From: Marinobacterium stanieri
Lineage (GTDB): Bacteria; Pseudomonadota; Gammaproteobacteria; Pseudomonadales; Balneatricaceae
Reading direction: 5' to 3'
Length of the DNA: 64,000 bases
Assembly (NCBI RefSeq): GCF_900155945.1
Contig: NZ_FTMN01000001.1
Span: forward strand, 372,001-436,000
This document shows positions 22,425 to 59,584 of this stretch, piece by piece (position 1 is the stretch's first letter; each line of letters starts with the position of its first letter). The translations under genes were made by a program, and so were the position numbers. Below the pieces are notes generated by a model. It had not been told where the DNA came from. It saw only the letters and a program-made list of their open reading frames with translations, and did not search any database.

Positions 22425-22500
<76 letters not shown>

Positions 22501-22503
22501 TGA

Positions 22504-22579
22504 TGGCATCCCGTAGGGGGTTCGAACCCCTGTTACCGCCGTGAAAGGGCGGTGTCCTAGACCACTAGACGAACGGGAC
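22504..22579 (-). tRNA. tRNA-Glu (TTC)
   Basis: 76 bases including CCA. Anticodon loop CTTTCAC (TTC) on a CCGCC/GGCGG stem, acceptor GTCCCGT/ACGGGAT, close to the E. coli tRNA-Glu sequence. Three bases separate it from the following tRNA-Gly. Confidence 0.95.
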
Positions 22580-22601
22580 ACACGAAGTGTCACAGGCACT
22601 T

Positions 22602-22677
<76 letters not shown>

Positions 22678-22679
22678 AA

Positions 22680-22755
22680 TGGCATCCCGTAGGGGGTTCG
22701 AACCCCTGTTACCGCCGTGAAAGGGCGGTGTCCTAGACCACTAGACGAACGGGAC
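22680..22755 (-). tRNA. tRNA-Glu (TTC), second copy
   Basis: Identical to the copy at 22504-22579; two bases from the following tRNA-Gly. Confidence 0.95.
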
Positions 22756-22782
22756 GCAGCCTGTTGCAAAAGTACTTAAGAT

Positions 22783-22858
<76 letters not shown>

Positions 22859-22859
22859 A

Positions 22860-22935
22860 TGGCATCCCGTAGGGGGTTCGAACCCCTGTTACCGCCGTGA
22901 AAGGGCGGTGTCCTAGACCACTAGACGAACGGGAC
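22860..22935 (-). tRNA. tRNA-Glu (TTC), third copy
   Basis: First gene of the leftward tRNA array, identical to the other Glu copies. The promoter should lie in 22936-23014, where TTCGCGTT and CATATAGTA-type sequences occur but no convincing pair was fixed. Confidence 0.95.
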
Positions 22936-26102: not shown

Positions 26103-26178
26103 GTCCCGTTCGTCTAGTGGTCTAGGACACCGCCCTTTCACGGCGGTAACAGGGGTTCGAACCCCCTACGGGATGCCA
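26103..26178 (+). tRNA. tRNA-Glu (TTC), fourth copy, rightward
   Basis: Same 76-base sequence as the leftward copies but on the plus strand, two bases before tRNA-Gly. Confidence 0.95.
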
Positions 26179-26180
26179 TT

Positions 26181-26256
<76 letters not shown>

Positions 26257-44401: not shown

Positions 44402-45097
44402 CTACAACGCTGGCACCTTGAAACGCGTATCCTGGTATTGCATGACAACGGCGCGTGGAATGATGGAAATAACCCTCAACCCCGGGCGAACAAAGTCCTG
44501 CTCCCGCATGACTCTCCCCTCATACTTCACCAGACGTGAAGCGGGATCTTCTGCGTAAATATGTACCGAGAATCTCAGCCCCTGCAGCTCCCGTTGCTGC
44601 GAAGCCGGTAGTTGACGCAGATATGGCAGTCCCTCAAACGGGTCTGTGCTTATCAACCGGGCTTCCCCCACTGGCTCTTCCACCGGGGCTGACTCGGTCG
44701 TGACAGCTGGCGTTTGCTGAGGCGTCAGGTTCCGGTTTTGCCCCCTGGTCGCACCAGCAGAATCAGCCGCAGGCGCTCCGAGCTCAATCCTTACCCCCTT
44801 GAACGCCGACACCCTGTCTGTGGCAGAAACATCCTGTGGGGGGGCCGCCGCTGCCACAGGCGGGTCAGTATCAGTTCGATCATCTGCTTTGGTTATTGCC
44901 TGCTTCGCATTTTGCCCCTGCCATAACCAGACACCCAATAACAGCAGGATCAGCACCAGCAGTACGCGACCGAACGCCTTTCCTGACACGGCTTGTGCCG
45001 GTTCGGCTGGCACAGCATCAGGTGAGCCACCTCTGTCAGCCTGGCGTTCCGACCGCTGCCGGGTTGAAGCTTTTAGTGCATCGTGAATATAGGACAT
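44402..45097 (-). CDS. gspB: GspB-like component of GspAB
   Basis: 231 residues. Short cytosolic start MSYIHDALKASTRQR, a membrane segment near residues 45-62, a Pro/Ala/Thr-rich periplasmic link and a C-terminal GspB domain (LPYLRQLPASQQRELQGLRFSVHIYA ... RVISIIPRAVVMQYQDTRF). GspAB complexes help the GspD secretin assemble across peptidoglycan in some T2SS. The ATG at 45097 has GAGG nine bases upstream; the preceding gspA stop lies 17 bases upstream. The T2SS genes are 12 kb away, on the same strand. Confidence 0.85.
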   Translation of the reverse strand: MSYIHDALKASTRQRSERQADRGGSPDAVPAEPAQAVSGKAFGRVLLVLILLLLGVWLWQGQNAKQAITKADDRTDTDPPVAAAAPPQDVSATDRVSAFKGVRIELGAPAADSAGATRGQNRNLTPQQTPAVTTESAPVEEPVGEARLISTDPFEGLPYLRQLPASQQRELQGLRFSVHIYAEDPASRLVKYEGRVMREQDFVRPGLRVISIIPRAVVMQYQDTRFKVPAL

Positions 45098-45113
45098 CTC
45101 AGAGGACCTCACT

Positions 45114-46889
45114 TCAGCCACTCAAACGCGGCAACTCGGGCTGCAGCAGGCTATTTAGTCGAATCAACGTGAGGGGCCCGGCAATGCCATCCACTGCCAA
45201 CCCCTGTTGCTGCTGAAAATGTTTGACCTGTAAATAAAGCTGGGCATCGTAGTTCAGCTTTCTATCAGCCTTCTCTCCCCGCTGTTGCGCCAGCTGACGG
45301 TTCAACCAGTCGACACCCGCCCCTTGGCTTCCTGGCCATAAGGGCCCCGGGTATTCGGGAGGCTGACGCCAAAGCAACGTGAACTGCCCGCCCCACAGCT
45401 CCTTCAAGCGTGATACGGGTATCTTGTGGACCTGAGCATTGACAATAACCTCAGCCCACCCTGCTTCCAGCTGGACCAGAAGTGCTTCGTAGTCCTGTTC
45501 CTCTGCCTTCAACGTAATCACTGCAGGACGGTCCAACTGCATGAGCTGTAGCATGGTGCCTTGCATCGACAAACATCCCAGCCCGTGCCGGGCGGCATAG
45601 TCGCACACGACAGGGTCCTGACGCGGGTCGTACTCCAGCTGCCAAATTGAGAACAACTCCATGTAGGCCAGCACCTGGGCGAGGTTCACATCCTCTGGAG
45701 CCGGCCATTCAGCATGACTAACTGGCTGCCCATTGGTGAGCCCAACATTCGCATTGGACACCTGTGTTGCCTCAAAGCCATTGCCCACATCCATGCCCAC
45801 ATCGAAGTCACTGGACACCGCAACATTTTCCAGGCCGGTATCACCTTTTTCCCAGGGGAAAAGCTGCTGACGCAGTACGACAAGGTCTGCCTCGCCAAGC
45901 ACTGGTGCCTGCTGCTCTTTTACAAACGCCTGCCAACTCAGGTACTCGGGCACTTTCAGCTGCCCACTGAATAGTATGGATAACCCAAGCCCGGTACCCC
46001 AGCCAAGCAGTCCCAACAAAATGACCAGTGACACCCAAAACAGCATGGAGCGCCGAGGGTGCAAACAGGCTCCGCTTTCGTCCCCTAACACCTCCCTGGC
46101 CGCTTTTTGCAGGGTTTTAACCGTGACCTCATTTCCGGTTTGAACATAGGTTCCCAGCAAGGCACGGTCACATATTTGATTGATAACTCTGGGCAGACCT
46201 GAGGAGAGGCGATAGAGGCAGTCGATGGTGGCAGCGGGGAAAACAGGACGACTGAGACCGGCCACATGCAAGCGATGTTCGATGTAACGTTTCAGATCCG
46301 GCTCTGACAAGGGCCCGAGATGGTATCGGGCGCTGACACGCTGGGACAGTTGGCGCAGATCATCACGGGCCAACCGCGTCAGCAGTTCCGGCTGGCCCAG
46401 CAGTACTACACGCAGTAACTTGGCTTCACTGGTTTCCAGGTTAGTGAGCAGGCGAACCTGCTCCAGAGCCTCAAACGAAAGCTGCTGTCCCTCATCGATG
46501 ATGAGCAGGGTGTTGCGCCCCTGTGCATGCTGCTGCAAGAGAAAGTCATAGATCAAGCTGCACAATTGTTTCATGGAGGGTGCAGAGCCCGCCTCTGTCT
46601 CTATGCGTAACTCTTCACAAATGGCTTCCAACAGTTCTCGCGGCTCCAGTTGCGGATTCAGAATCAGAGCAAAGTCGGTTGTGTCAGGCAGGTGTTCAAT
46701 TAAATGCCGGGAAAGAGTGGTCTTGCCGGTACCGACCTCGCCGGTCAGAAGGATAAAACTGCCATCAGCAGTAATACCGTAAAGCAGGTGTGCCAGTGCC
46801 TCTTCGTGCTGCTCACTCATATAGAGATAGCGCGGGTTGGGCGCAATGGAGAATGGGGGCTCCTGTAAGCCAAAATAATCACAATACAT
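45114..46889 (-). CDS. gspA: GspA/ExeA-like ATPase with peptidoglycan-binding domain
   Basis: 591 residues. AAA+ domain with Walker A GEVGTGKT at residues 50-57, Walker B LLIIDEGQQL near 125-131 and R-finger region, a membrane segment near 282-305, and a periplasmic part ending in a peptidoglycan-binding domain (LYLQVKHFQQQQGLAVDGIAGPLTLIRLNSLL). This is the architecture of ExeA, which works with ExeB/GspB to open a path through the wall for the secretin. The family resemblance is strong, including MYCDYFGLQEPPFSIAPNP at the start. It opens a two-gene unit divergent from the sigma-54 activator gene. Confidence 0.92.
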   Translation of the reverse strand: MYCDYFGLQEPPFSIAPNPRYLYMSEQHEEALAHLLYGITADGSFILLTGEVGTGKTTLSRHLIEHLPDTTDFALILNPQLEPRELLEAICEELRIETEAGSAPSMKQLCSLIYDFLLQQHAQGRNTLLIIDEGQQLSFEALEQVRLLTNLETSEAKLLRVVLLGQPELLTRLARDDLRQLSQRVSARYHLGPLSEPDLKRYIEHRLHVAGLSRPVFPAATIDCLYRLSSGLPRVINQICDRALLGTYVQTGNEVTVKTLQKAAREVLGDESGACLHPRRSMLFWVSLVILLGLLGWGTGLGLSILFSGQLKVPEYLSWQAFVKEQQAPVLGEADLVVLRQQLFPWEKGDTGLENVAVSSDFDVGMDVGNGFEATQVSNANVGLTNGQPVSHAEWPAPEDVNLAQVLAYMELFSIWQLEYDPRQDPVVCDYAARHGLGCLSMQGTMLQLMQLDRPAVITLKAEEQDYEALLVQLEAGWAEVIVNAQVHKIPVSRLKELWGGQFTLLWRQPPEYPGPLWPGSQGAGVDWLNRQLAQQRGEKADRKLNYDAQLYLQVKHFQQQQGLAVDGIAGPLTLIRLNSLLQPELPRLSG

Positions 46890-47013: not shown

Positions 47014-47108
47014 TGAGTAATATTTCAGTGCTTATTCAATAAACAGACTACACTTTTAATATACAGTGCCCCCGCCCTTCCCGGTTGTTCAGCCGCGAGG
47101 TTAATAAA

Positions 47109-48512
47109 ATGAACACCTTAGGAGCCTTGGGAGCTAAACCTTCCGATACTGGCCGCTCAGCAATTTATGTTGATTTATGCAGCGCCAGCAATATGACATT
47201 TGATATTGAACACTTCCAGGGATGGTCCTTTCACTCAGTCAACAGTCTGGAAGCAGCGGAGGAGCAGCTGAAAGCCTCACCCTACATGGTCGGCGTTACC
47301 TGTTTTGACTGGTCAGAGCTCAGCAATAAAAATGCCCTGGTTCAGTTCTTTCAACAACACCATGAAATTGCCTGGATTGCGTTGATCAAGCCAGAGCAAC
47401 TTACCGACGTAGATCTGCGCCGACTGCTGTTTGAGAACTTCTACGACTATTGCTCACTGCCGCTGGACGGCAATAAGGAGCACCTCTCTGTCATCATGGG
47501 ACACGCCTATGGGTTGTACCACTTGCAGCACCTTGAGCAGGTTTCCCAGGAAGCCGACAACCAGTTTCAGATGGTCGGCTCCAGCTCTCAGATGCTCAGT
47601 ATTTTCAATCTCATACGCAAGACAGCGCAAACGGACGCCGCTGTTCTGATCATGGGTGAGAGTGGAACGGGCAAGGAACTGATAGCCCGGGCCATCCATC
47701 AGCGCTCAAGCCGCAAGCAAGCCCCTTTCATCGCCGTAAACTGCGGCGCTCTGCCGGAGAGCCTGATTCAGTCGGAACTGTTCGGCTTCGAAAAAGGTGC
47801 CTTCACGGGTGCAAACCAACGCCGCCTTGGACGCATTGAAGCGGCTCAGGGAGGCTCGCTGTTTCTGGATGAAATCGGTGATTTGGCCAATAACCTTCAG
47901 GCACACCTGCTGCGCTTTCTGCAGGAAGGTACAATCGAGCGGCTTGGCTCCAACACCCCTCTGGAAATTGATGCCCGTGTGATTGCCGCAACCAATACAG
48001 ATCTGGACGCAGCAGTGAGGGACGGGAGCTTTCGAGAAGACCTGTTCTACCGACTCAGTGTGCTGCAGATTCGCGTCCCCCCTTTAAGGGAAAGAGGCGA
48101 GGACAAGGAGTTACTGGCCCGGTTCTTTTTCCACAAGTTTGCCAGTGATCACGGCGGCCACCTCAAAGGCTTTACTCAAGAGGCTATAGAGGCAATTAAC
48201 CGATACACCTGGCCCGGCAATGTGCGCGAGATGATTAACCGTATCCGCCGCAGCATGATCATGAGCGACAACCACCTGATCACCCCACAGGACCTTAACC
48301 TTGAAGCCTTCGCCAGCCACACCTCTGCCAGCGACTGTATGAAAACCCTCGACGAAGCACGTGCCGAGGCGGAAAAAGTGGTGATCGCCCATACCCTGGC
48401 GCAATGTCAGAACAACGTGTCCAAAGCGGCAAAGGCACTGGATGTTTCCCGCGTAACCCTCTATCGCATGATCGAAAAGCACCATTTGCACACCAAAACC
48501 GCCCATCATTGA
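47109..48512 (+). CDS. Sigma-54-dependent activator, VpsR-like N-terminus
   Basis: 467-residue enhancer-binding protein. Residues 15-135 form a receiver-like domain that lacks the usual phospho-Asp signature (CFDWSELSNKN at the acceptor region). The AAA+ domain has Walker A GESGTGKE at 183-190, GAFTGA at 230-235 (needed for sigma-54 contact) and switch/arginine-finger motifs. The C-terminal HTH reads NVSKAAKALDVSRVTLYRMIEK. The ATG at 47109 has GAGG eight bases upstream; an earlier in-frame TTG is rejected. It diverges from gspAB, and a sigma-54 promoter lies upstream of the repeat protein gene at 56888. Confidence 0.9.
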   Translation: MNTLGALGAKPSDTGRSAIYVDLCSASNMTFDIEHFQGWSFHSVNSLEAAEEQLKASPYMVGVTCFDWSELSNKNALVQFFQQHHEIAWIALIKPEQLTDVDLRRLLFENFYDYCSLPLDGNKEHLSVIMGHAYGLYHLQHLEQVSQEADNQFQMVGSSSQMLSIFNLIRKTAQTDAAVLIMGESGTGKELIARAIHQRSSRKQAPFIAVNCGALPESLIQSELFGFEKGAFTGANQRRLGRIEAAQGGSLFLDEIGDLANNLQAHLLRFLQEGTIERLGSNTPLEIDARVIAATNTDLDAAVRDGSFREDLFYRLSVLQIRVPPLRERGEDKELLARFFFHKFASDHGGHLKGFTQEAIEAINRYTWPGNVREMINRIRRSMIMSDNHLITPQDLNLEAFASHTSASDCMKTLDEARAEAEKVVIAHTLAQCQNNVSKAAKALDVSRVTLYRMIEKHHLHTKTAHH

Positions 48513-48670
48513 GCAGCCGGCCACCTCTGGCCGCTGTTCATGGCGCGTTACATCCGCAGGCCATTACCTCCCCTCCAACAGGCTAGCAGTGTCACAAGCA
48601 ATTGAACGTAAAGATATACGGATAAGTTGGCCTGAATCCTGCTGAATTCTCCGGGAGAGAGGGCTTTCCT

Positions 48671-48931
48671 ATGAGACATCTACGCAAGGCATTTTCAACA
48701 CACCGCTTGATTCGGTCCCAACCGGAGACCAACTCTGCCGATACGCCCCCTTCCGCCAGCTCAGCAACTGACCAGGACATCTATGAAGTGCCGACCGCCA
48801 CGTCTTTGGGTGATACACACTGGCAGCGAAAACGGCCCTGGCATGCTGGTGGGACTAGTCCTGAAAGCAGTTTGGAAAGGCTTATTGCCTTATGGGACGA
48901 AACCGAAGAAACATATAGCAAAAAAGTCTAA
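48671..48931 (+). CDS. Hypothetical small protein
   Basis: 86 residues, polar, without membrane segment or known motif, preceded by GGGAGAGAGGG 13 bases upstream. The composition is not strongly coding-like and it stands in a region of low information, so it may not be expressed. Positioned between the activator and the AT-rich leader of the protease. Confidence 0.3.
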   Translation: MRHLRKAFSTHRLIRSQPETNSADTPPSASSATDQDIYEVPTATSLGDTHWQRKRPWHAGGTSPESSLERLIALWDETEETYSKKV

Positions 48932-48962
48932 AAATCCCACCCCGCCGCCAATTCCTAAAATG

Positions 48963-48980
48963 TGTAAACCATGGTTTACA
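48963..48980. repeat. 18-base perfect palindrome
   Basis: TGTAAACCATGGTTTACA, in a markedly AT-rich stretch (48932-49345) that otherwise contains no gene. Operator candidate. Confidence 0.5.
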
Positions 48981-49235
48981 ACATGTTTATACATTGTCTC
49001 TAAAAGACTAACACTTTGTATTTTATTATCGAAAAACCTCCTGAAACTTTCATTTAATTAACACCTCAAATATAGAAGCTGTTAAATAAATGAAACACTC
49101 GATAATTACCTATCAAATATTTAACACAGCTTCAAAAAAGTGTCACCTATACATTTTCCACCCGCCTGATATTATCGCCACCAATTAATTTTGATCATAT
49201 TTTAAACACATCTAGCTCATATCGAGTATTTGAAA

Positions 49236-49264
49236 CTGAACACTTGTTCATAGTTCGTGTTCAG
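49236..49264. promoter_or_regulatory. Dyad upstream of the protease leader
   Basis: CTGAACAC/GTGTTCAG, 8-base arms, 13-base spacer, with further GTTC copies inside; it lies 85 bases before the riboswitch, where an activator or repressor could act. A weak -10-like TACAAA is at 49311-49316, without a -35. Confidence 0.45.
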
Positions 49265-49348
49265 ACCTGTTGCACAACTTGATCAGACGAAGAGTCTGTT
49301 AAGCCGCCACTACAAATACTTCGCTTGAGCATTACAGATTTGAGATCC

Positions 49349-49433
49349 TCTCCCGAAAAGGCACGACTGGAACAGTCACGCAAAGCCATGGGAGAGTCAT
49401 CCTGGATGACTCTGGCCCGGCTACCGAAGGAGA
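49349..49433 (+). promoter_or_regulatory. GEMM-I cyclic-di-GMP riboswitch
   Basis: P1 pairs TCTCC (49349-49353) with GGAGA (49429-49433). Next AAAAGGC and the P1b hairpin GACTG-GAA-CAGTC, the invariant ACGCAAAGCC (49378-49387), a P2 stem AGAGTCAT/ATGACTCT (49393-49400 with 49406-49413) closed by GGG/CCC, and the 3' GGCTACCGAA. These are the defining elements of the GEMM-I class (RF01051). The P1b loop has only three bases, where most family members have GNRA. The aptamer ends 72 bases before the protease ATG. Confidence 0.82.
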
Positions 49434-49504
49434 ATACTCACTGAGCCGAGACAGTGCCTGCTCGCATGAGGATCTTGCTGAACTTGATGATTCAGGAGAC
49501 GAGC

Positions 49505-52384
49505 ATGCTGCAGCAAAGACCTTCCGCGAAACCCTGCCTACTGGCACTGAGCATTCTGGCCACAACCCTGGCCCCCACGGTTCATGCGGCACCAGCTGCG
49601 TCCGCTCATGCCCAGACCAACCTGCCGCAGCAAGCCCGCGCTCAATCACAGAACCTGGTAGCCCTGCAAAAACGCTGGAGCAATTCAGGCCAGGGTAATG
49701 CGCAACTGTTAGGCAAACTGGTTCAGGAAGCTGACACTCGCCGTGAGACACTGCGTAGCTTGATGCAGCAGCACCCTGAAATCGTTCTGCAGTTAGCTAT
49801 TCCTGCGCAAAAGCAGATGGCTATGCCAAAGCAGGTCATTGAAAAACTTGAGCAGCGCCTCAGCCTGCAGGGCCAGCTGGAGGTTTTTTATGAGGACAAG
49901 GAAGACGGTGGCCATCAACTCAAGCACTACCTGAAAACGCCCTTCGGCGAGCGTTTTGAACTCCATTTTGCCGGTAAACCCGGTCAGCTCAAACACGGCC
50001 AGGAAGTAGAGCTGGACGGGGTTCTCGTTGCCGGTGACGCCGAGAGTGCAACGGATGGTGATGTGGCACTGGAACCTGGTATGTTGATGCTGGCTGCTGA
50101 TGGTGGCAGTACTGGCGGCAGCAACGGTGGCACCGCCGCCGACAGCGCGACCTTCGGCGCTCAATCCACACTGGTGATCAACGTCAATTTCAGCGACGAC
50201 CGATCCGAGCCCTGGACACCGGAGCAGGCACGCAGCACCGTTTTCGACCAGGCCAGCGACTTTATCTACGAGAACTCCTTCGGCCAAACCTGGCTCACCG
50301 GCGATGTTACTCCCTGGCTCAACCTGCCGATCAATGGCGCCAGCTGCGATACTACCAGCATCGTCAATGCCGCGATGGACGCTGCCGCCAGCGCCGGGTA
50401 TGACACCAGCCAGTACAACCGTTTGATCTTCGCCATGCCCAGCACTTCAACCTGCGGCTTTTCGGGCGTGGGCTCCGTCGGTGGCACCAACTCTACCATG
50501 ATCATCAATGGCTCCATGTACTGGTTCACTGTTGCCCACGAAATGGGGCACAACCTGGGCCTGTATCACTCCCATGCGTTGGAGTGTGGCACTGACGTGC
50601 TGGGCAGTAACTGCTCCAGTGACGAATACGGTGATGGTGTGGATATCATGGGCCGAGTAAGCGGTCACTTCACTACATTCCAGAAAGAACGCCTGGGTTG
50701 GCTCGATAGCCGACATATCCAGACCGTAACCAGCAGCGGCCTGCATGAACTGGAACCCTACGCAGGCCTGCCGGGCAATGCGCCCAAGGCACTGAAAATT
50801 GCCAAAGGCACCGATGCCGCTTCCGGTGAGTCGGAGTGGTTCTATGTTGAATACCGTCAAGCTCACGGTTACGACTCTATTTTTGCCAGCAATGCCAATG
50901 TGCAAAATGGCGTTGTCGTTCACACCGGTATCAGCAACAAAGGCAACAGCAGCTACATGCTGGATATGACGCCCGGCAGCAAGTCTTCCAGCTATACCGA
51001 CACGCGTGACCCGGCGTTGGAAGTTGGCCAACAGTTCACCGACCCCGATTCAGGCGTCACTCTGGCTACTGAATGGGTGGATGGCACCCTGGCTCAGGTC
51101 AACGTTCAGCTGGATGGCAGCCCAATCAGTTGCAACCCGGTGCAGCCAATTCTGGACATCACCCCGGGAACTACCGTCTGGACTCAATCAGGTGCTACCC
51201 ATAGCTATACCCTGACGCTGACCAACCGTGACAGTTCAGCCTGCGCCAGCAGTCAGTATTCACTTGCAACCCAGGCCCCCAGTGGCTGGAGCAGCCAGCT
51301 TGGTAACACCTCTTTAAACCTGGCGCCGGGTGAAACACAAAGCCTGAGCTGGAGCCTTACCACGGCTGAGAGTGCAACCGATGGCTATTACACCCTGACA
51401 GCCAGCGCCACCTCTGGCAGCGTACAGGCACAGGACCAGGCAACTGTTGTCATCGACAACCCCGTTGCTAACACGGCACCGGTTGCACTGGGTGATTCTG
51501 CCAGCACAGCATTTGAACCCCCCGTCACCATTGATGTCTTGGCCAACGACAGTGATGTCGATGGCGACAGCCTGAGTGTCACCTCAGTGAACGCACTGAA
51601 CGGCACGGCGCAAATCAATGGCGATAACAGCATTACCTTTACGCCAGCCCAGGGGTTCAGTGGCCTGACCAGCTTCAGCTATAGCATCAGTGATGGTCAG
51701 GGCGGCAGCGACAGTGCCAATTTGAGCATTCAGGTTGAGGCTGCACCTGAGCCCGAGCCGGTATCGAATGAAGCTCCGGTAGCGGTCAATGACAGTGCCA
51801 GCACCGAATTTGAAACAGCTGTTACCTTTTCTGTTCTTGGTAATGACTATGACCCTGAAGGCGGCAACCTGAGTATCACGGCAGCCGATGCAGCAACCGG
51901 CAATGTCCGCATCAATGCCGATGGAACCCTGACCTTTACCCCGGCAACCGGCTTCAGTGGCCAGACCAGCCTGAGCTACACCGTGCAAGACCCTGAGGGT
52001 GCCAGCGCAACCGCTACTGTCATCATTACCGTTGCAGAGCCGACCAGTGTCAACGAAGCGCCAGTGGCTATCGCCGACAGCGTTACCCTGAGTAGCAAAC
52101 AGAGTGTACAGATTGCGGTGCTTGCCAACGATTACGACCCAGAGGGCAGTACGATTGAAGTCAGCGCATTTACCCAAGGCAATAAAGGCAGTGTCCGTCT
52201 GAACTCGGATGGCACCCTGGCCTACACCCCAGCCAAGTCGTTCAAACGTGATGACAGCTTCAGCTACACCATCAGTGACGGTGACAAGGCTGCAACAACA
52301 ACCGTCAGCATCGTCTTGAGCAGTGACTCCAGCAGCGACGGCAGTACTGGTGGCCCGGGCAATGGCAAAGGTAAAAACAAGTAA
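49505..52384 (+). CDS. Secreted HExxH metalloprotease (M11-like) with cadherin-like repeats
   Basis: 959 residues from the ATG at 49505, which has AGGAG six bases upstream. Signal peptide MLQQRPSAKPCLLALSILATTLAPTVHA, a propeptide-like helical region, then a zinc metalloprotease domain with H345-E-M-G-H-N-L-G-L-Y-H355 and a Met-turn DIMGR near residue 382: a metzincin close to the gametolysin (M11) family. After it come an NEW3-type domain (about 545-655) and three cadherin-like domains, each opening NxAPVA and containing VLANDxDxxG or VLGNDYDPEG calcium-binding phrases, and a GGPGNGKGKNK tail. Preceded by a cyclic-di-GMP riboswitch. Substrate unknown; the repeat protein next door is a candidate. 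Confidence 0.88.
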   Translation: MLQQRPSAKPCLLALSILATTLAPTVHAAPAASAHAQTNLPQQARAQSQNLVALQKRWSNSGQGNAQLLGKLVQEADTRRETLRSLMQQHPEIVLQLAIPAQKQMAMPKQVIEKLEQRLSLQGQLEVFYEDKEDGGHQLKHYLKTPFGERFELHFAGKPGQLKHGQEVELDGVLVAGDAESATDGDVALEPGMLMLAADGGSTGGSNGGTAADSATFGAQSTLVINVNFSDDRSEPWTPEQARSTVFDQASDFIYENSFGQTWLTGDVTPWLNLPINGASCDTTSIVNAAMDAAASAGYDTSQYNRLIFAMPSTSTCGFSGVGSVGGTNSTMIINGSMYWFTVAHEMGHNLGLYHSHALECGTDVLGSNCSSDEYGDGVDIMGRVSGHFTTFQKERLGWLDSRHIQTVTSSGLHELEPYAGLPGNAPKALKIAKGTDAASGESEWFYVEYRQAHGYDSIFASNANVQNGVVVHTGISNKGNSSYMLDMTPGSKSSSYTDTRDPALEVGQQFTDPDSGVTLATEWVDGTLAQVNVQLDGSPISCNPVQPILDITPGTTVWTQSGATHSYTLTLTNRDSSACASSQYSLATQAPSGWSSQLGNTSLNLAPGETQSLSWSLTTAESATDGYYTLTASATSGSVQAQDQATVVIDNPVANTAPVALGDSASTAFEPPVTIDVLANDSDVDGDSLSVTSVNALNGTAQINGDNSITFTPAQGFSGLTSFSYSISDGQGGSDSANLSIQVEAAPEPEPVSNEAPVAVNDSASTEFETAVTFSVLGNDYDPEGGNLSITAADAATGNVRINADGTLTFTPATGFSGQTSLSYTVQDPEGASATATVIITVAEPTSVNEAPVAIADSVTLSSKQSVQIAVLANDYDPEGSTIEVSAFTQGNKGSVRLNSDGTLAYTPAKSFKRDDSFSYTISDGDKAATTTVSIVLSSDSSSDGSTGGPGNGKGKNK

Positions 52385-52466: not shown

Positions 52467-55400
52467 TTACGGACAGAGCAGGTTATTGTTGTAACTATCC
52501 AGAATGCCGGCCAGCGTATTGGCTTCTTGTGCCACTGTAGCATTAGGCCCTTTGGCTTTCTTCAGATAGTCACCGGTACCATCAAAGCCGATGCTTACCA
52601 GCAGCGCTTCAGCGGCCAGTTTGGCATCCATCAGTGCCGGGCAAGTACCCGCACCTGCTTCAATGTTAAGCTGAACAGCCATCAGCTGAGCCGCCATACC
52701 GTAGGCTGCATCACCAGCTTTCTTACGACCGTCACCGACTTCAGCAGGGTTGGCAACATCCCGTTTATCCAGGATATCCACGCCCACGGCACAGTCTTCG
52801 ATCAGCATTTCCGGATGCAGTGCTACCGGCAGGAATTCATCCAGAACATCATAGTATTCCGGATCGGTCAGCCAGCGGTCATACTGGTTGCCCTTGCCGT
52901 CACAGCTGGTCCAGTTTTTCCAGAAACCGATGGTGCGGGCATTACCCCCTGGAGGCGGTGTGTTGTCCACATTGAAGCTTTCGGTTTCAGCCACACTCAG
53001 TGTGAAGTTGGCACATTCACCGATGTAGTCTTCGCCTACGCTCAGTGAGTACCAGATCAACGGGCCATCATTACTGCTGCCGGTTACCAGCCAGCCAGGC
53101 TGAACATCCAGCTCACAGAAGGCGTAGTCGCCCGGAAGCAGCTTCGCCATGCCCTCGACATCGACACAGAGATCCGAGTTCACATCTACTTCACAGCTGA
53201 AGCTGGCATAGCCGGTCACCGGATCGGTGGTGGCGCTTGCAACAACGGTGCTGCCACTGCGGATCTGGAAGTCAAAGGCCGGGTAGACACCATTCGGCGC
53301 AACTCCAGAGACCGTTTTCAGTACATCGGCCATACCGCGTTTGGTATTTTCGAAGGTACAGGTTACGGTTTCACCCGGTTGCAGGCTGATGCTGCCCGGA
53401 TCGCTGCCATCACTACAGTAGGCATCGGTCAGGTCCCAACCATCCGGTACGCTTTCAGACACTGAGTAGCCACCCGGTACCAGCGGAGCTGACATGTGCG
53501 GGTCGGTTTCATCGGCCAGTGAGAACGGATCAGCGTAGTCCGGCAGGAAGTCGAACAGCTGCGGATCCAGTGCCGGATCGGTCACCTTATCAACAATGAT
53601 GTAACCACGTTTGGTGTTCTCAAACGTACAGGTTACGGTTTCACCGGCTTGCAGGCTGATGCTGCTCGGGTCGCTGCCATCACTGCAGTAGGCATCGGTC
53701 AGATCCCAGCCTTCCGGTACGCTTTCAGACACTGAGTAGCCACCCGGTACCAGCGGAGCTGACATGTGCGGGTCGGTTTCATCGGCCAGTGAGAACGGAT
53801 CAGCGTAGTCCGGCAGGAAGTCGAACAGCTGCGGATCCAGTGCCGGATCAGTCACCTTGTCAACAATGATGTAACCACGCTTGGTGTTCTCAAACGTACA
53901 GGTTACGGTTTCACCGGCTTGCAGGCTGATGCTACCCGGGTCACTGCCATCACTACAGTAGGCATCGGTCTGATCCCAGCCTTCCGGTACATTCTCAGAC
54001 ACTGAATAGACACCGGCAGTCAGAGGTCCTGACATGTGCGGGTCGGTTTCATCGGCCAGTGAGAACGGATCAGCGTAGTCCGGCAGGAAGTCGAACAGCT
54101 GCGGATCCTGTGCCGGGTCGGTCACCTTATCGACGATGATAAAGCTGTGGCGGGTGTTCTCGAAGTAACACTCGACTGTTTCAGCGTTATCGATGCTGAC
54201 ACTGATGGAAGCGGTGTCAAAGTCGACCGTGGTTTCACCGAAGATTGCGGTATCGTCTTCACAGCGCAAGCCTGTCAGATCCCAGCCCGGAGGCACGATC
54301 TCGTTCAGGTTGTAGATACCTTCTTCAAGGCTCAGGAAGGTTGCCTGAGGTCCGGTGGTATCAACACCTTCAGACAGTGTCGCAATGCTGAACGGCGGCA
54401 GGCTGTCATCACCACTGACATAGTCAAAGCTGCCTATGTCACCAATGGTGGTTTTGTAGATGATCAGATTACCCGGCGCTGCCAGTTTGGTGTTGGTGAA
54501 CGTACATTCAACCGTTTCACCCGCTGCCAGCTCGATATTGGCGGTAAAGCCACCTGTGGTGCTGTCGCCACTGGGGTCATTACAGCTGATATCGGTCAGG
54601 CTGAACAGGCTCAGCACCGGATCCACCTCGCTGACATCATAGCTGCCTGGGGACAGATCAAGGAAGGTATGGGATACGCTGTCACCCGACAGGGCTGCTG
54701 GCCCAAAGCTCCAGGATTCAGCATCCAGCAAGGCATCCAGACTGCCGACGCTGCTGTCGAAGTCAAAGTTACCGGCCAGATTCAGCGCGTTGTTGCCTTC
54801 CACCACCTTAGTGATGATAAGAGCAGCCAGGCGAGTGTTCTCGAAGGTACAGAAGAACTCGTAGTCTGCACTTTCCGGCAGGTTGACCGTAAAGGTACAG
54901 AAGCCGCCTTCGAGGTTATTGGTTTCGCCATCACTGACGCCTGTCAGTTCCCAGCCATCACGTGGCTGTTCGGTAATGGTGTATACACCTTCGAACAGAT
55001 CCACCGGGAAGACGGCATCACCCGCTTCATTGGAGACTGCCAGTACACCACCGTCCAGTCCAGGACCGGTCAGCAGGAACTCGAAGCCTGCCGGACTTTC
55101 GCTTTCAGGTACAGTGACCTTGACTGCCTTGGCGCTGGCGGGTTCTGCTTCGTTGACGAAGTAGACATCACCACCACAAATCGGCAACAGGATACTGGCC
55201 TGCTGTTCGTCGTCCAGCACGAAACCATCACTGCCGCTCACTTCCACGACACGGTAGGTTTCATTCGGATCGAGGTTACCCAGGGTTACCTGGTTATTGA
55301 GCTCACCCGGGCCGAAGCCGATTTCCACATTATCAGCGACCAGCTCGTCTTCACCTTCCATTACCTTGTAGACATCGAAGTAGAAGCTGGCGCTTTCACC

Positions 55401-56888
55401 TTCGTCCAGCTCAAGGTCAATGGCTTTATGAATGGTCAGCTCAACCAACGGATAGTCGGCGAATGAAACGCTGGCATTTTTCTCGGCGGTATAGCCATTG
55501 GACGCCAGCAGGGTTGCGGTATCCGGCAGCTCGCCATTGCTGTCACGCGGCTCATCCAGGTAGATGGTTTTGACGAACTCGACATAGCCATTGCCACTTT
55601 GCTGCGAGGACTCCCAGGTCACCGGACCTGCGGTCATGCTGCCAAGTGTGTAGCCATCCGTGAAGCCGCCACTGCCATCAACAGAGTCAACCGAGAACAT
55701 GTAGCCAAGACCGGTGATAGGCCCTTCCACATCGGTAATAACAGCGGTGGCATCCACCTCGTTACCACTGGGCTGAACATCTGCAGACGCAATCGCCTGA
55801 GTTTGACCCGGAACCTCGATTTCACCGATCTTATAAGTGGCGGTGGCCACGTCATTCAGACCGAATACAGACTCATCTACATCCGGGATGGTATGGGTCA
55901 GGATCTTGACGGTTTCCCCTGCCGGTACCAGCACATCAATCGCTGATGCGGTATCCAGCAGCACTTCACCACCGCCCAGATTACCGTAGATCATGTCTTC
56001 AATGCTGACATGTACATCCAGGTGAGCCGGGTTGGTCGCGTAGATATTGGTCACAATGGTGACCATGCCAGCTTCACCTGGCAAACGCTCCCACTCGATA
56101 CGAATGGTAGTTTCTTCCGTCATCGGATCATCGCGTTCACAGCTGTTCTGGAAAGACAGTGAGGAAGGTGTCGCTTCTTTGGTCAGGTTCCAGATATACA
56201 CGGTATCCTGCTGTGCGTTCATGTCCTTATCCAATTCCTGCGGCAGGATATCGGCAACGGGCAACTGAATACGTTTCTGACCGATGTTGGAGTTTTCGAA
56301 GTCTTCATTCCACAGGTTGGACTGCAGTGAGGAACCACTGAACTCGCTGGCCCCCAGAGACAGGCGCTGTGCATAGTCATATACACAGGTTTCGTCTGCC
56401 GCCATGGTGGCTTCGATACGACGATAAATGGTTTCATGCGCACCACCGGCACCATCACCGGGTGGCGTGATACTTACGGGGCCGGATACAACCGCGTTAC
56501 AGCTACCATCCGAAAGAGATGCATTCAATGTCAGTGCAGTGATGTCATCCCACCCGGTGGTACTGGTGCTGTTTGGGGTGTAGTCCCCGGCGACGATGAA
56601 GTCGAACGTTTGTGCCCCGTTACCGTTGTGAAGTGTCACTCGGTGCGGCACATAGTCCAACTCGTTCCATTGTTTACCCAGGTTACCGGTTACATAGCCC
56701 TCATCGGTACAGGTAAAGGTTGTTTGATCATAGGTTGCGCCGGTTTCCAGACGACAGCCTTCCAAGGTAAAACCGATCTGCACCGGAAAAGCCGCTTGAG
56801 CACCCCAGGACATCAGCAGTGTCATTACTGCCAAGGGCAACCATAGCCACCTGCGCCAGGCATCGGTTTCAATTAGCTGGGACCACAT
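52467..56888 (-). CDS. Large secreted CnaB/prealbumin-like repeat protein
   Basis: 1473 residues. Signal peptide of 32 residues ending AQA. After an N-terminal region of about 460 residues come at least seven prealbumin-like (SpaA/CnaB) domains, most opening with a hydrophobic-x-K strand (LTIHKA, LIITKV, LIIYKT, IIVDKV), holding a Glu in YSVSE, YTITEQ or YNLNE and ending in CTFENTK. A C-terminal part with GFWKNW and Cys residues follows. Three 90-residue repeats (about 915-1185) are nearly identical. Perfect Shine-Dalgarno AAGGAGGT six bases before the ATG. The Lys-Asn pairs suggest internal isopeptide bonds; a surface adhesin or fibre is the best guess. No LPXTG or PEP-CTERM anchor was seen. 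Confidence 0.85.
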   Translation of the reverse strand: MWSQLIETDAWRRWLWLPLAVMTLLMSWGAQAAFPVQIGFTLEGCRLETGATYDQTTFTCTDEGYVTGNLGKQWNELDYVPHRVTLHNGNGAQTFDFIVAGDYTPNSTSTTGWDDITALTLNASLSDGSCNAVVSGPVSITPPGDGAGGAHETIYRRIEATMAADETCVYDYAQRLSLGASEFSGSSLQSNLWNEDFENSNIGQKRIQLPVADILPQELDKDMNAQQDTVYIWNLTKEATPSSLSFQNSCERDDPMTEETTIRIEWERLPGEAGMVTIVTNIYATNPAHLDVHVSIEDMIYGNLGGGEVLLDTASAIDVLVPAGETVKILTHTIPDVDESVFGLNDVATATYKIGEIEVPGQTQAIASADVQPSGNEVDATAVITDVEGPITGLGYMFSVDSVDGSGGFTDGYTLGSMTAGPVTWESSQQSGNGYVEFVKTIYLDEPRDSNGELPDTATLLASNGYTAEKNASVSFADYPLVELTIHKAIDLELDEGESASFYFDVYKVMEGEDELVADNVEIGFGPGELNNQVTLGNLDPNETYRVVEVSGSDGFVLDDEQQASILLPICGGDVYFVNEAEPASAKAVKVTVPESESPAGFEFLLTGPGLDGGVLAVSNEAGDAVFPVDLFEGVYTITEQPRDGWELTGVSDGETNNLEGGFCTFTVNLPESADYEFFCTFENTRLAALIITKVVEGNNALNLAGNFDFDSSVGSLDALLDAESWSFGPAALSGDSVSHTFLDLSPGSYDVSEVDPVLSLFSLTDISCNDPSGDSTTGGFTANIELAAGETVECTFTNTKLAAPGNLIIYKTTIGDIGSFDYVSGDDSLPPFSIATLSEGVDTTGPQATFLSLEEGIYNLNEIVPPGWDLTGLRCEDDTAIFGETTVDFDTASISVSIDNAETVECYFENTRHSFIIVDKVTDPAQDPQLFDFLPDYADPFSLADETDPHMSGPLTAGVYSVSENVPEGWDQTDAYCSDGSDPGSISLQAGETVTCTFENTKRGYIIVDKVTDPALDPQLFDFLPDYADPFSLADETDPHMSAPLVPGGYSVSESVPEGWDLTDAYCSDGSDPSSISLQAGETVTCTFENTKRGYIIVDKVTDPALDPQLFDFLPDYADPFSLADETDPHMSAPLVPGGYSVSESVPDGWDLTDAYCSDGSDPGSISLQPGETVTCTFENTKRGMADVLKTVSGVAPNGVYPAFDFQIRSGSTVVASATTDPVTGYASFSCEVDVNSDLCVDVEGMAKLLPGDYAFCELDVQPGWLVTGSSNDGPLIWYSLSVGEDYIGECANFTLSVAETESFNVDNTPPPGGNARTIGFWKNWTSCDGKGNQYDRWLTDPEYYDVLDEFLPVALHPEMLIEDCAVGVDILDKRDVANPAEVGDGRKKAGDAAYGMAAQLMAVQLNIEAGAGTCPALMDAKLAAEALLVSIGFDGTGDYLKKAKGPNATVAQEANTLAGILDSYNNNLLCP
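53332..54141 (-). repeat. Three tandem 270-bp coding repeats
   Basis: Copies of 270 bp (90 codons) at about 53332-53601, 53602-53871 and 53872-54141; the first two differ at only a few positions and the third is slightly more diverged. In frame with the repeat protein. Confidence 0.9.
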
Positions 56889-57176
56889 GTCCCACCTCCT
56901 TCGGCTTGAGGCTTACGTTTTTAACCCCTTGCCGATTTGTTCCATCTCCTCGGTGTGTTCGGTGGCTGGCCAAGACTCCGGCGTACCGCTTTATGTGTGT
57001 AACCTTCAGCCCCCAACTGCTGTCCTGCTGATTGGCAGGAACTGCCAGCACACATCGACTTGATGGAGATAAGAGATTTGAGGCCAGGCCTCCCCCCTTA
57101 CTGACCGGGCTGCGAGGTTCATTCCCTGCACAGCACGATCTGTTCTATCGCCAAAGCCGCTTGGTGTGCTGGTTAA
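56889..57176 (-). other. Long untranslated leader of the repeat protein gene
   Basis: About 288 bases between the sigma-54-like promoter and the ATG, rich in short GC hairpins such as GGCAGTTCCTGCC (57037-57049). No GEMM aptamer: the invariant GCAAAGCC is absent. It may hold a different regulatory RNA. Confidence 0.4.
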
Positions 57177-57192
57177 TACAAGGAACGTGCCA
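57177..57192 (-). promoter_or_regulatory. Sigma-54-type promoter of the repeat protein
   Basis: Leftward TGGCACGTTCCTTGTA: TGGCAC, five bases, TTGTA. The -24 GG and -12 GT are spaced ten bases apart as required; the last C of the consensus TTGC is T. It lies in an AT-rich stretch with GAATATTTC nearby. Confidence 0.6.
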
Positions 57193-57361
57193 GACAATTA
57201 ACCAATTGATATATAAAGAATATTTCTTTTAAAGGCAGGAAGTAGTGATGTGGAATATACGGTCTTTTTGACAGATAAACTTCCACAAAATGGCTAACTC
57301 ATTGAAAAAATTAAGCTTTTACCAATGTTCCTCAGCTGTAAGCGTGAAGTTACAAGGTTCC

Positions 57362-57393
57362 AGAAATAAAACAGGCCCGGGGTTACCGGGCCT
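57362..57393 (-). terminator. Terminator of the T2SS operon
   Basis: 8-bp AGGCCCGG/CCGGGCCT stem, leftward followed by TGTTTTATTT, 17 bases after the gspD stop. It separates the operon from the repeat protein gene. Confidence 0.8.
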
Positions 57394-57409
57394 TAGCTGA
57401 AAAACAAGG

Positions 57410-59584
57410 CTATTCGGACTGATCAAGCGCCCTCGGGGCCAAATCCAGTCCACGCAGTTTGTTCTGGTACTCCCGGGTGACCTGACGTGCATCTGCAGTA
57501 TCCGTCACCGCCGTTGGTGTAATCATCACCACCAGTTCCGTGCGGCTTACACTCTTGCCTCGACTGCCAAACGCCCAGCCGACCAATGGAACATGGCGCA
57601 GATAGGGCGCGCCTTCACCACCATTGGTCTTGTTTTCCTTGATTAACCCGCCCAGCACCAGGGTTTCGCCGCTTTGCACGGCGACACTGGTATTAATTCT
57701 GCGTTGAATGATGGTGGGCGAATCAATATTGGAGCTGGTGGTTTCACCCGCGACATCATTCACCTCCTGAGTGATATCCAGTACCACCATGCCTCCGGAG
57801 TTTACGCGTGGGGTCACTTCCAGCAACACCCCGGTATCCCGATACTGAATGGTGCTGGTGGTATTGAGATCATCACTGGCCGTATTGGTGGTCGCAGACG
57901 TGCGAATGGGCACCTGATCACCGACACGAATTTCGGCCGTATGATTATCCAACACCATTAGCGAAGGTGAGGAGATAACATTCAGGCGAGAGTCCGAGGC
58001 CAGTATATCCAGCAGGGCACGGGTTTCGCCGGATTTGAACACCTCGAAACTGGCACTGCCCAACAACTCCGAAGCACTCGGAAAGGAACCACTGCCAATG
58101 GTGCCCACCCCTTGGCTGCTGCCATGGCTCGTTTTAAAGAACCAGTTCAGCCCATAGCGCAACTCATCTTCCAGCGTAACCTCCACAATCGTGGCTTCAA
58201 CCAGCACTTGTAACGGCAACACATCCAGCTTTTCGATTGCTCGGAACACCTTGTCATAATCGGTCGGCGACGCCATGATCAACAAGGCATTATTTTCGGC
58301 ATCAGCAATAATCTCCACTTCGCCTACATCCAGACTGGCCGGTGAAGCGCCCGACGATGTTGGCCTGACGTCCGGGGCTTCCTGCTCATCTCCTGAGTCA
58401 GAGGCTGGAGCGGGACTCAGCGGCTGCGATTGCAGGCTGCGGCGCTGTCCTTCGAACAGCTCGCTCAACATTTCACCGAGCCTTTCCGCACGTCCGTTTT
58501 GCACGTAATAGACATACATGCCCAAGCCCTGGGCCCCTTCCGTTCTATCCAGCCGACGAATCCAGGCGGCAGCATCCGACAAGTACTTTTTCTGTGGCGT
58601 AATAACCAGCAAGGCGTTCAAACGCTCAATGGGCAAGAAATTCACCACACCAGCCAAGGGGCCTTCTGCAGCATCGCCGAAAATCACATCCATCTCTGTC
58701 ATCAGCTGCTCAGGATCGACCGATTGCAACCGAAACAGCCCCACTGACATCCCTTTCAACTGGTCAACGTCAAATACCCGAATCGTCTCTTTCAGGTTAA
58801 TCAGCTCCGCCTGGGTACCGGCCAGGGTGAGCATGTTGCGGCGAACATCCGCTTCCAGAATCCCCTGTTGAGGTTTCATCGGCTCCAGGATTTTGAGCAT
58901 CTCCTGCGCACCGATGTACTGCAGGGGCACAACCAGCATCTGATAGCCTCTATCAGCACTCAGGTTGGCTTTCAGGCTCACCGTACCGCCGTTGATACTG
59001 TCAATTGGCACCACTTCGTAAAAGTCCTGCTGATCCACCAGAGCAGCACCGTTGATTTGCAGCAGATGTTCCAGCGTCGGTATCAGCGCATCCCGGCTGA
59101 TCGGACGCACCGTCTGCATATTGGCTACCCCGCGAACACGGTCATCCAGGATGTAGTTGACCCTCAGGATATCCCCCAGAATGGTTTTGACGATTTCGCC
59201 GATTTCGGCATCCTGGAAATTAAAGGTGATATCGCCGCTGACAGGCGCGACCTCGGGGCCTTCACTCAGGTCCACAAAACTGCCTGTACCAGTGTAATAC
59301 TCCGCAGGAGGAGGTTGCTCAGGTGCCGTGGGGGACGCTTCACTGCTGAAACGGCCTTTATCCACGGTACTCGTTTGAACACCGCGCTGCTCCCGGATAC
59401 GGCTGGCTACCGGGCGATCAGCCGCCGGGTCGCGCACTTCATACCAGGGGCTATCAAGGGCATTGGGGTTACGTGTTTCATCCAGTGCGCAGGCACTTAG
59501 CCCCAGTATAAGAACCATCAAGAAAACCGGTTTAACACTATAGAAAGCGCGCCAGGGCTCTCTACCCATGAATCGACTACTCAT
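57410..59584 (-). CDS. gspD: GspD outer-membrane secretin of the T2SS
   Basis: 724-residue secretin channel for exoproteins. The ATG at 59584 has GGGAGG six bases upstream. A long N-terminus precedes a lipobox LSAC (C32), so this is a lipidated secretin that may target itself to the outer membrane. N0 domain, three N1-N3-type domains (phrases DRVRGVANMQTVRPIS, LKMLEPM-like regions, FLPIERLNALLVITPQ) and the secretin core (SPSLMVLDNHTAEIRVGDQVPIRTS, VPLVGWAFGSRG) are visible. It overlaps the gspC-like stop by eight bases. Last gene of the operon. Confidence 0.93.
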   Translation of the reverse strand: MSSRFMGREPWRAFYSVKPVFLMVLILGLSACALDETRNPNALDSPWYEVRDPAADRPVASRIREQRGVQTSTVDKGRFSSEASPTAPEQPPPAEYYTGTGSFVDLSEGPEVAPVSGDITFNFQDAEIGEIVKTILGDILRVNYILDDRVRGVANMQTVRPISRDALIPTLEHLLQINGAALVDQQDFYEVVPIDSINGGTVSLKANLSADRGYQMLVVPLQYIGAQEMLKILEPMKPQQGILEADVRRNMLTLAGTQAELINLKETIRVFDVDQLKGMSVGLFRLQSVDPEQLMTEMDVIFGDAAEGPLAGVVNFLPIERLNALLVITPQKKYLSDAAAWIRRLDRTEGAQGLGMYVYYVQNGRAERLGEMLSELFEGQRRSLQSQPLSPAPASDSGDEQEAPDVRPTSSGASPASLDVGEVEIIADAENNALLIMASPTDYDKVFRAIEKLDVLPLQVLVEATIVEVTLEDELRYGLNWFFKTSHGSSQGVGTIGSGSFPSASELLGSASFEVFKSGETRALLDILASDSRLNVISSPSLMVLDNHTAEIRVGDQVPIRTSATTNTASDDLNTTSTIQYRDTGVLLEVTPRVNSGGMVVLDITQEVNDVAGETTSSNIDSPTIIQRRINTSVAVQSGETLVLGGLIKENKTNGGEGAPYLRHVPLVGWAFGSRGKSVSRTELVVMITPTAVTDTADARQVTREYQNKLRGLDLAPRALDQSE

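Follow-up and report, generated by a model that had tools for sequence, protein, structure and literature searches.

A family-wide GEMM-I leader of a predicted secreted metzincin protease and its proposed strand-exchange control of translation

Published work on C. difficile describes the zmpI (PPEP-1) transcript as repressed by c-di-GMP through Cdi-1-12, a class I switch (PMC4591827, PMC6200980, PMC6366702), and the ZmpI protease as releasing CD2831, which is encoded next door and induced via a class II switch (PMC4591827, PMC6200980; review PMC6366702). For V. cholerae, a report states that neither an anti-Shine-Dalgarno sequence nor an intrinsic terminator was seen in the interval between Vc1 and gbpA (PMC4744006). 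A study of Bc1 (mcpE) of B. thuringiensis describes a long platform, two terminators and genes unresponsive to c-di-GMP, with probing that located the ribosome site together with the AUG inside a stem-loop once c-di-GMP was added (PMC11218506).

The locus described here lies in a 64,000-nt stretch of the Marinobacterium stanieri genome (the window; Table 1) and resembles ZmpI/CD2831 in that the gene of a secreted zinc metalloprotease is preceded by a class I c-di-GMP riboswitch and adjoins the gene of a surface or secreted protein. It differs in its Gram-negative host, in a much larger protease of other domain build and in the convergent arrangement of the two genes; control is proposed as translational, in contrast to that of the zmpI transcript; and, unlike CD2831, the partner, whose cleavage is presumed, has no Rfam match up to E 1 in the region upstream of its gene (56700-57700), where a second riboswitch was considered and rejected. 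The partner is SpaA-like in the window, and at least seven neighbours elsewhere in the family look like other kinds of protein. Because of the differing size and domain build and the missing partner riboswitch, the locus is regarded as working like ZmpI/CD2831 and is not counted as belonging to it.

An independently evolved Gram-negative counterpart—a three-strand GEMM-I switch that would turn a metzincin off at high c-di-GMP, a secreted substrate, encoded tail-to-tail, that it would release or mature, and a VpsR-like regulator—is advanced tentatively, as a possibility that is on balance doubtful. If the proposed control of the protease by this leader is right, c-di-GMP would set through an RNA when a protease, likely remodelling the cell's own surface, is produced, and the C. 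difficile logic would recur in an unrelated lineage. The leader resembles Vc1/gbpA in placing GEMM-I ahead of a protein gene in a gammaproteobacterium, but it shows a platform of three segments (a, b and c). With Bc1 it shares a class I aptamer and, as proposed here, masking of the ribosome site, although the Bc1 gene is not a protease gene; since such masking has already been proposed for Bc1, the mechanism considered here is not new in kind. A limited literature search on GEMM or c-di-GMP riboswitches with Marinobacterium, Oceanospirillales and metalloprotease did not return the family-wide system; what it gave for Marinobacterium and Oceanospirillales was off the subject, to judge by titles and the openings of abstracts, and in that search the c-di-GMP riboswitch titles appearing alongside metalloprotease concerned C. 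difficile, V. cholerae and a general review.

Table 1. Features of the protease locus (positions are those of the window)
Feature	Position	Strand	Basis or remark
GspB-like protein	44402..45121	-	NF037978, 37.6 bits (cut-off 100)
GspA-like ATPase (type II secretion assembly), syntenic	45114..46889	-	Pfam, NCBIfam, synteny
Regulator with VpsR domain and sigma-54 activator domain, upstream	47085..48512	+	PF20161, 54.7 bits
Segment a, AGATCCTC, 2 nt shared with P1 5' strand	49343..49350	+	complementary to b
Aptamer closed by P1	49349..49433	+	UCUCC 49349-49353 / GGAGA 49429-49433
P2 hairpin GACUG-GAA-CAGUC, without GNRA tetraloop	49365..49377	+	folding, motif parse
Conserved core ACGCAAAGCC	49378..49387	+	sequence
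P3 hairpin, 9 bp (49393-49401 / 49405-49413), without usual receptor motif	49393..49413	+	folding, motif parse
Conserved core GGCTACCGAA	49419..49428	+	sequence
Segment b, GAGGATCT, anti-P1 strand	49468..49475	+	8 Watson-Crick pairs with a
Hairpin CUGAA/UUCAG, overlapping Shine-Dalgarno	49478..49495	+	probability 0.94 with P1 forced, 0.03 with a:b forced
Shine-Dalgarno AGGAGA	49494..49499	+	chosen by eye; pairing of GGAG 0.91 (P1 forced) and 0.44 (a:b forced)
Metzincin protease, predicted secreted, 959 aa	49505..52384	+	HEXXHXXGXXH, NEW3, three bacterial Ig/cadherin-like domains (Pfam)
Secreted repeat protein, 1473 aa, SpaA/prealbumin-like domains, convergent; candidate protease partner	52467..56888	-	Pfam, synteny

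The GEMM-I aptamer and its pairing with the protease gene

A reading made from the sequence alone had placed a GEMM-I aptamer in the leader of a secreted protease, and P1 (TCTCC/GGAGA), AAAAGGC and the two conserved core stretches are indeed all present in the order that it gave; the hairpin that it described also exists, as a stem of 9 bp rather than 8 and as P3, not P2, of the Rfam layout. In a local scan of 271 bases against 4227 Rfam families, the c-di-GMP-I aptamer model RF01051 matched over its full length (model positions 1-87) at 49350-49428 (+), with 34.2 bits and E = 2.6e-5. The gathering score of this model is 35 bits: that reading had staked itself on a match above this cutoff, and the match falls 0.8 bit below it. 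The genome-wide E value is 1.0e-4, and only three places in the genome match RF01051 at E <= 10, namely the window aptamer and elements of 54.8 and 13.9 bits (E 9.4), while across the whole 64-kb window eight tRNAs are the sole Rfam matches above gathering score.

The model alignment has the core letters matched and the P1-P2-P3 order present, RNAfold of 49340-49440 gives the same helices as the RF01051 layout, and 199 of 200 shuffled versions fold less well than the aptamer region itself (z -2.97). The shortfall of 0.8 bit is outweighed by conservation in orthologues, which score above gathering (35.1 to 55.0 bits for the other four aptamer-bearing protease leaders of the genus) and which rule out a chance match. 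The layout and core agree with the family and the orthologues reach the score, so that the element, whose P2 carries a GAA triloop instead of a GNRA tetraloop and whose P3 has no receptor motif, is counted despite its own score as a GEMM-I member with missing tertiary motifs; it would presumably bind the ligand.

A search of 116 genomes of the bacterial family to which the window belongs with RF01051 at E <= 0.001 gave matches in 45 genomes, and none in 14 control genomes. Of the 114 aptamers extracted, counting the window's own and three that belong to other families of the order, 40 are part of the leader of a gene homologous to the window protease. Seen from the side of the protease, 42 matches are spread over 28 of the 116 genomes, and 40 of these homologues (26 genomes, 7 genera) carry a GEMM-I leader, the exceptions being G003, which retains the protease with no recognisable aptamer in its leader, and a partial protease match of 32% identity in G091. 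The gene-RNA pairing is therefore close to fixed in the family, and this, together with the near-threshold RF01051 match and the ligand base discussed below, upholds the earlier assignment. A scan of the window at gathering score thus misses, by 0.8 bit, a family-wide leader-protease pairing. The riboswitch class is known; what the sequences indicate is a family-wide riboswitch-protease system in which a putative strand-exchange platform is conserved.

In an order-level sample, 10 of 390 genomes encode the protease at E <= 1e-20, three of them from other families (G041, G290 and G390). Both protease copies of G041 have GEMM-I-like leaders (L212 1283-1415 and L219 1927-2059), which RF01051 misses at E <= 0.1; the scanned copy matches RF03167 with 34.7 bits (gathering 59, E 8e-7), and the aptamer-to-start leader of the second looks alike. 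Genome searches found no RF01051 match before the protease genes of G290 and G390; for G290, where GEMM-I in the protease leaders was considered and rejected, none of five genome matches at E <= 0.1 lies there, and one of the two leaders, scanned locally, gave no match either.

The GNRA loop and P3 receptor are frequent, not universal, in GEMM-I. Among the 112 aptamers that could be parsed (of 114), 77 have both, 22 neither, 8 the receptor only and 5 the loop only, the receptor pattern having been drawn up after viewing the sequences and the Fisher test counting relatives as independent; the two motifs are thus mostly retained or lost jointly, and the low RF01051 score of the window aptamer goes with their absence. 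The motif CGCAAA[GA] was found in all 40 protease aptamers.

Certain GEMM-I aptamers sense cGAMP, and G at Vc2 position 20 is associated with c-di-GMP preference. Base 49360, which we take to correspond to Vc2 G20, is G, as had been suggested, and the same base occupies this position in 40 of 40 protease leaders, which argues against 3',3'-cGAMP as the main ligand of the same RNA, a very improbable alternative. Two other GEMM-I aptamers, at G027:C73:52459 and G091:C475:1321, have A at this position; neither precedes a protease gene, and they are perhaps of cGAMP type.

The 54.8-bit element is a second GEMM-I in the same genome (G000:C19:113088-113164; L001, L056), with a longer P1 and no b segment. 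With genes named by eye, it follows flgA/flgM/flgN-like genes and a tRNA and lies about 0.5 kb before a retropepsin-like protease gene; relatives within the genus carry similar copies, and behind two of these a terminator-like hairpin with a T run can be made out by eye, so that elements of this type are possibly stand-alone RNAs. The tRNAs of the window form a tandem array (22428-22935, minus strand, and 26103-26253, plus strand) of two alternating tRNAs with identical scores, Gly- and Glu-like by eye, arranged in pairs, three of which share a strand while a further one is on the opposite strand.

Proposed strand exchange and the ribosome site

The sequence-only reading had missed a strand-switch platform, which is now proposed with a translational OFF sign. 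In the window, P1 is separated from the ATG by 71 nt, in which b and c of the platform lie, and segment a, upstream, is a perfect 8-pair complement of b. The a/P1-5' segment of the RNA would have two alternative partners, the P1 3' strand or b. Bound by c-di-GMP, the aptamer would keep P1 and leave b free, and in this state the Shine-Dalgarno region is predicted to be closed in a hairpin, in most relatives with b; in the window, the closed state would be made by CUGAA/UUCAG and nearby pairs rather than by b:c. Without ligand, b would invade P1 to form the a:b helix, freeing the ribosome site, so that low c-di-GMP, as on leaving a surface, would permit synthesis of a protease that probably acts on the convergently encoded secreted protein. 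Taken together, a translational OFF switch by strand exchange is the rather probable reading of this leader, with ligand binding, sign and substrate each presumed.

The pairing evidence comes from the 40 protease leaders, which amount to a set of natural variants of the proposed GEMM-I translational platform, the shared strand being invariant and the unshared P1 positions covarying. GATCCTCT, which takes in the lower half of the 5' strand of P1, is invariant in 40/40, whereas two upper P1 positions vary and yet pair in 39 and 37 of 40 (shuffle means 28.9 and 31.6), covarying with the 3' strand to a degree that 0 and 1 of 500 shuffles attain. A strand with two partners is expected to freeze and a single-partner strand is free to covary, which is the pattern seen for a and the upper P1. 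The longest Watson-Crick run of a:b is at least 8 in 35 of 40 leaders as opposed to 2.5% of dinucleotide shuffles. The a:b core itself hardly varies (G-U wobbles and one mismatch), so that covariation speaks neither for nor against a:b; the outer pair adjoining GATCC is standard in 36/40, where shuffles average 31.1 and 2 of 500 do as well, and for the three pairs beyond it (29, 27 and 23 of 40) the counts do not clearly exceed those of shuffles.

Segment b is complementary, in addition, to c in most relatives, where c runs from the Shine-Dalgarno as far as the start codon. Over 29 distinct pairs, the b:c duplex energy is -7.1 kcal/mol for a leader's own segments, -6.8 when swapped and -2.3 with c shuffled, 2.4% of permutations being as good as the observed match—a modest result from related sequences. 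Coordinated changes of b and c occur in G098 (GGGGATCT/AGATTCCC), G004 (GAGGGTCT/AGACTC) and G079 (TAGGG/CCCTA); G065 and G059 were rejected as further cases, c alone differing there while the b core is unchanged. In G041, from another family, a, b and c (GAAAGTCCTC, GAGGGCTTTC and AGTCCTC) are all unlike those of the family and still pair, by eye, with one G-U per helix. The window is a weak case among the leaders (b:c -2.4 kcal/mol) and, with its 2-nt a/P1 overlap and without GNRA loop and receptor, is not the cleanest member.

Apart from the protease leaders, segments resembling a and b, with Watson-Crick runs of 6 to 9, occur in the GEMM-I leaders at G079:C10:161215, G080:C2:744599, G082:C99:9204 and G011:C39:44387, which lie ahead of the gene of a conserved and, by eye, regulator-like protein of about 420 aa (LKILFIDPH...FVTWG...).

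The sign of the switch was read from folding, in which the figures are nearest-neighbour estimates that leave out tertiary and ligand terms. The Shine-Dalgarno of the window is open at 0.57 with a:b forced and at 0.09 with P1 forced; across the 40 leaders mean openness is 32% and 11%, respectively, and the site is more open with a:b in 34. The P1-forced state thus hides the ribosome site, and ligand reads as OFF. Six leaders go against the model (G005, G079, G080 and one leader each of G024, G074 and G076), and some are predicted to be closed in both states; the balance between the P1 and a:b states averages 0.0 kcal/mol with a range of -8.1 to +13.5, so that several leaders are predicted to switch little.

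A genetic ON switch, in which P1 and a shortened a:b helix would stack, both stabilised by the ligand, with b kept off the ribosome site and the protease raised, draws on the overlap of only 2 nt between a and P1 in the window, which would leave 6 to 7 a:b pairs free to stack beneath P1, and on the close same-genus relative M. halophilum (G005), for which the model opens the Shine-Dalgarno to 0.72 when P1 is forced and to 0.43 when a:b is. It is unlikely, however, given a window a:b probability of 0.01-0.02 once P1 is forced and the conservation of the b bases opposite the shared a/P1 bases (G in 39/40, A in 38/40, G in 40/40), which is expected if a:b and P1 are mutually exclusive. OFF is most likely the sign under this model, well ahead of ON and short of certainty. 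Two other routes to control were rejected: an intrinsic terminator platform, there being 0 terminator-like sites in 48500-49700, and a sigma-54 promoter before the protease gene, none of the 8 pattern matches in the window (14 expected) lying in the leader.

In the growing window RNA, the probability of P1 is 0.93, 0.88 and 0.87 for ends at 49434, 49440 and 49450, and drops to 0.01 at 49460, 0.29 at 49467 and 0.00 at 49472; a:b reaches 1.00 at 49476 and stays at 0.98-1.00 from there on. P1 is thus weakened before b is complete, which indicates that other pairings compete with the aptamer. This early loss of P1 would suit a decaying copy that has lost useful switching, as would the score below gathering, the absent loop and receptor, the weak b:c and the aptamer-less locus of the related G003. 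Against decay, the core bases, P1 and a:b of the window aptamer are intact, and G005 and G004, likewise without the tertiary motifs, retain a, b and a b:c duplex (-7.3 and -6.3 kcal/mol), and a decayed window aptamer is considered quite unlikely.

The protease, its convergent partner and neighbouring genes

The protease gene starts with the ATG at 49505, and its HEXXHXXGXXH motif is contained in TVAHEMGHNLGLYHSH. Pfam models of M11, M12 and astacin match it weakly, above their cut-offs, the NCBIfam M6 domain model stays below its cut-off, and a sequence search of the PDB gave weak metzincin matches (best astacin, E 0.0066). To judge by eye from its N-terminus, the protein is probably secreted. 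V. cholerae VpsR binds c-di-GMP, and a homologue of the VpsR-like regulator encoded upstream was present in 13 of 15 neighbourhood regions searched.

The convergent SpaA-like gene is separated from the protease gene by 89 bases, as counted by script. A hand tally of the 42 family loci (ORFs of at least 250 aa only, neighbour kinds by eye) could resolve the following gene at 35 of them; this gene is convergent at 34, the aptamer-less G003 included, and G074:C1:1618662 is the exception. The other seven loci comprise four at a stretch or contig edge, two not fetched and G091. The convergent neighbours are mostly long secreted-looking proteins, with five DsbA-type oxidoreductase-like and two lipoprotein-like by eye, and this mixture does not imply a single substrate type. 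Four loci outside the family (G041, G290) are also convergent, one G041 neighbour being RNA helicase-like.

Many partner proteins (e.g., L221 6069-8291, L194, L199, L202) have a cysteine-rich tail (CSICYSN...CP, CPICPACPDC) or a GFWK segment close to the C-terminus, which may serve as a signal for sorting or cleavage. Within about 24 kb of G290 (L221, L222), five GEMM-I elements are located on the partner strand near the protease loci. Large ORFs follow four of them at distances of 181, ~880, ~1,030 and ~1,220 bases, and the fifth is situated behind the second of these; two ORFs, read from end to end, look secreted, and a third was read in part. As a lead, this arrangement would put GEMM-I at the partner genes, the opposite gene to that of the window's family, as a candidate for their regulation.
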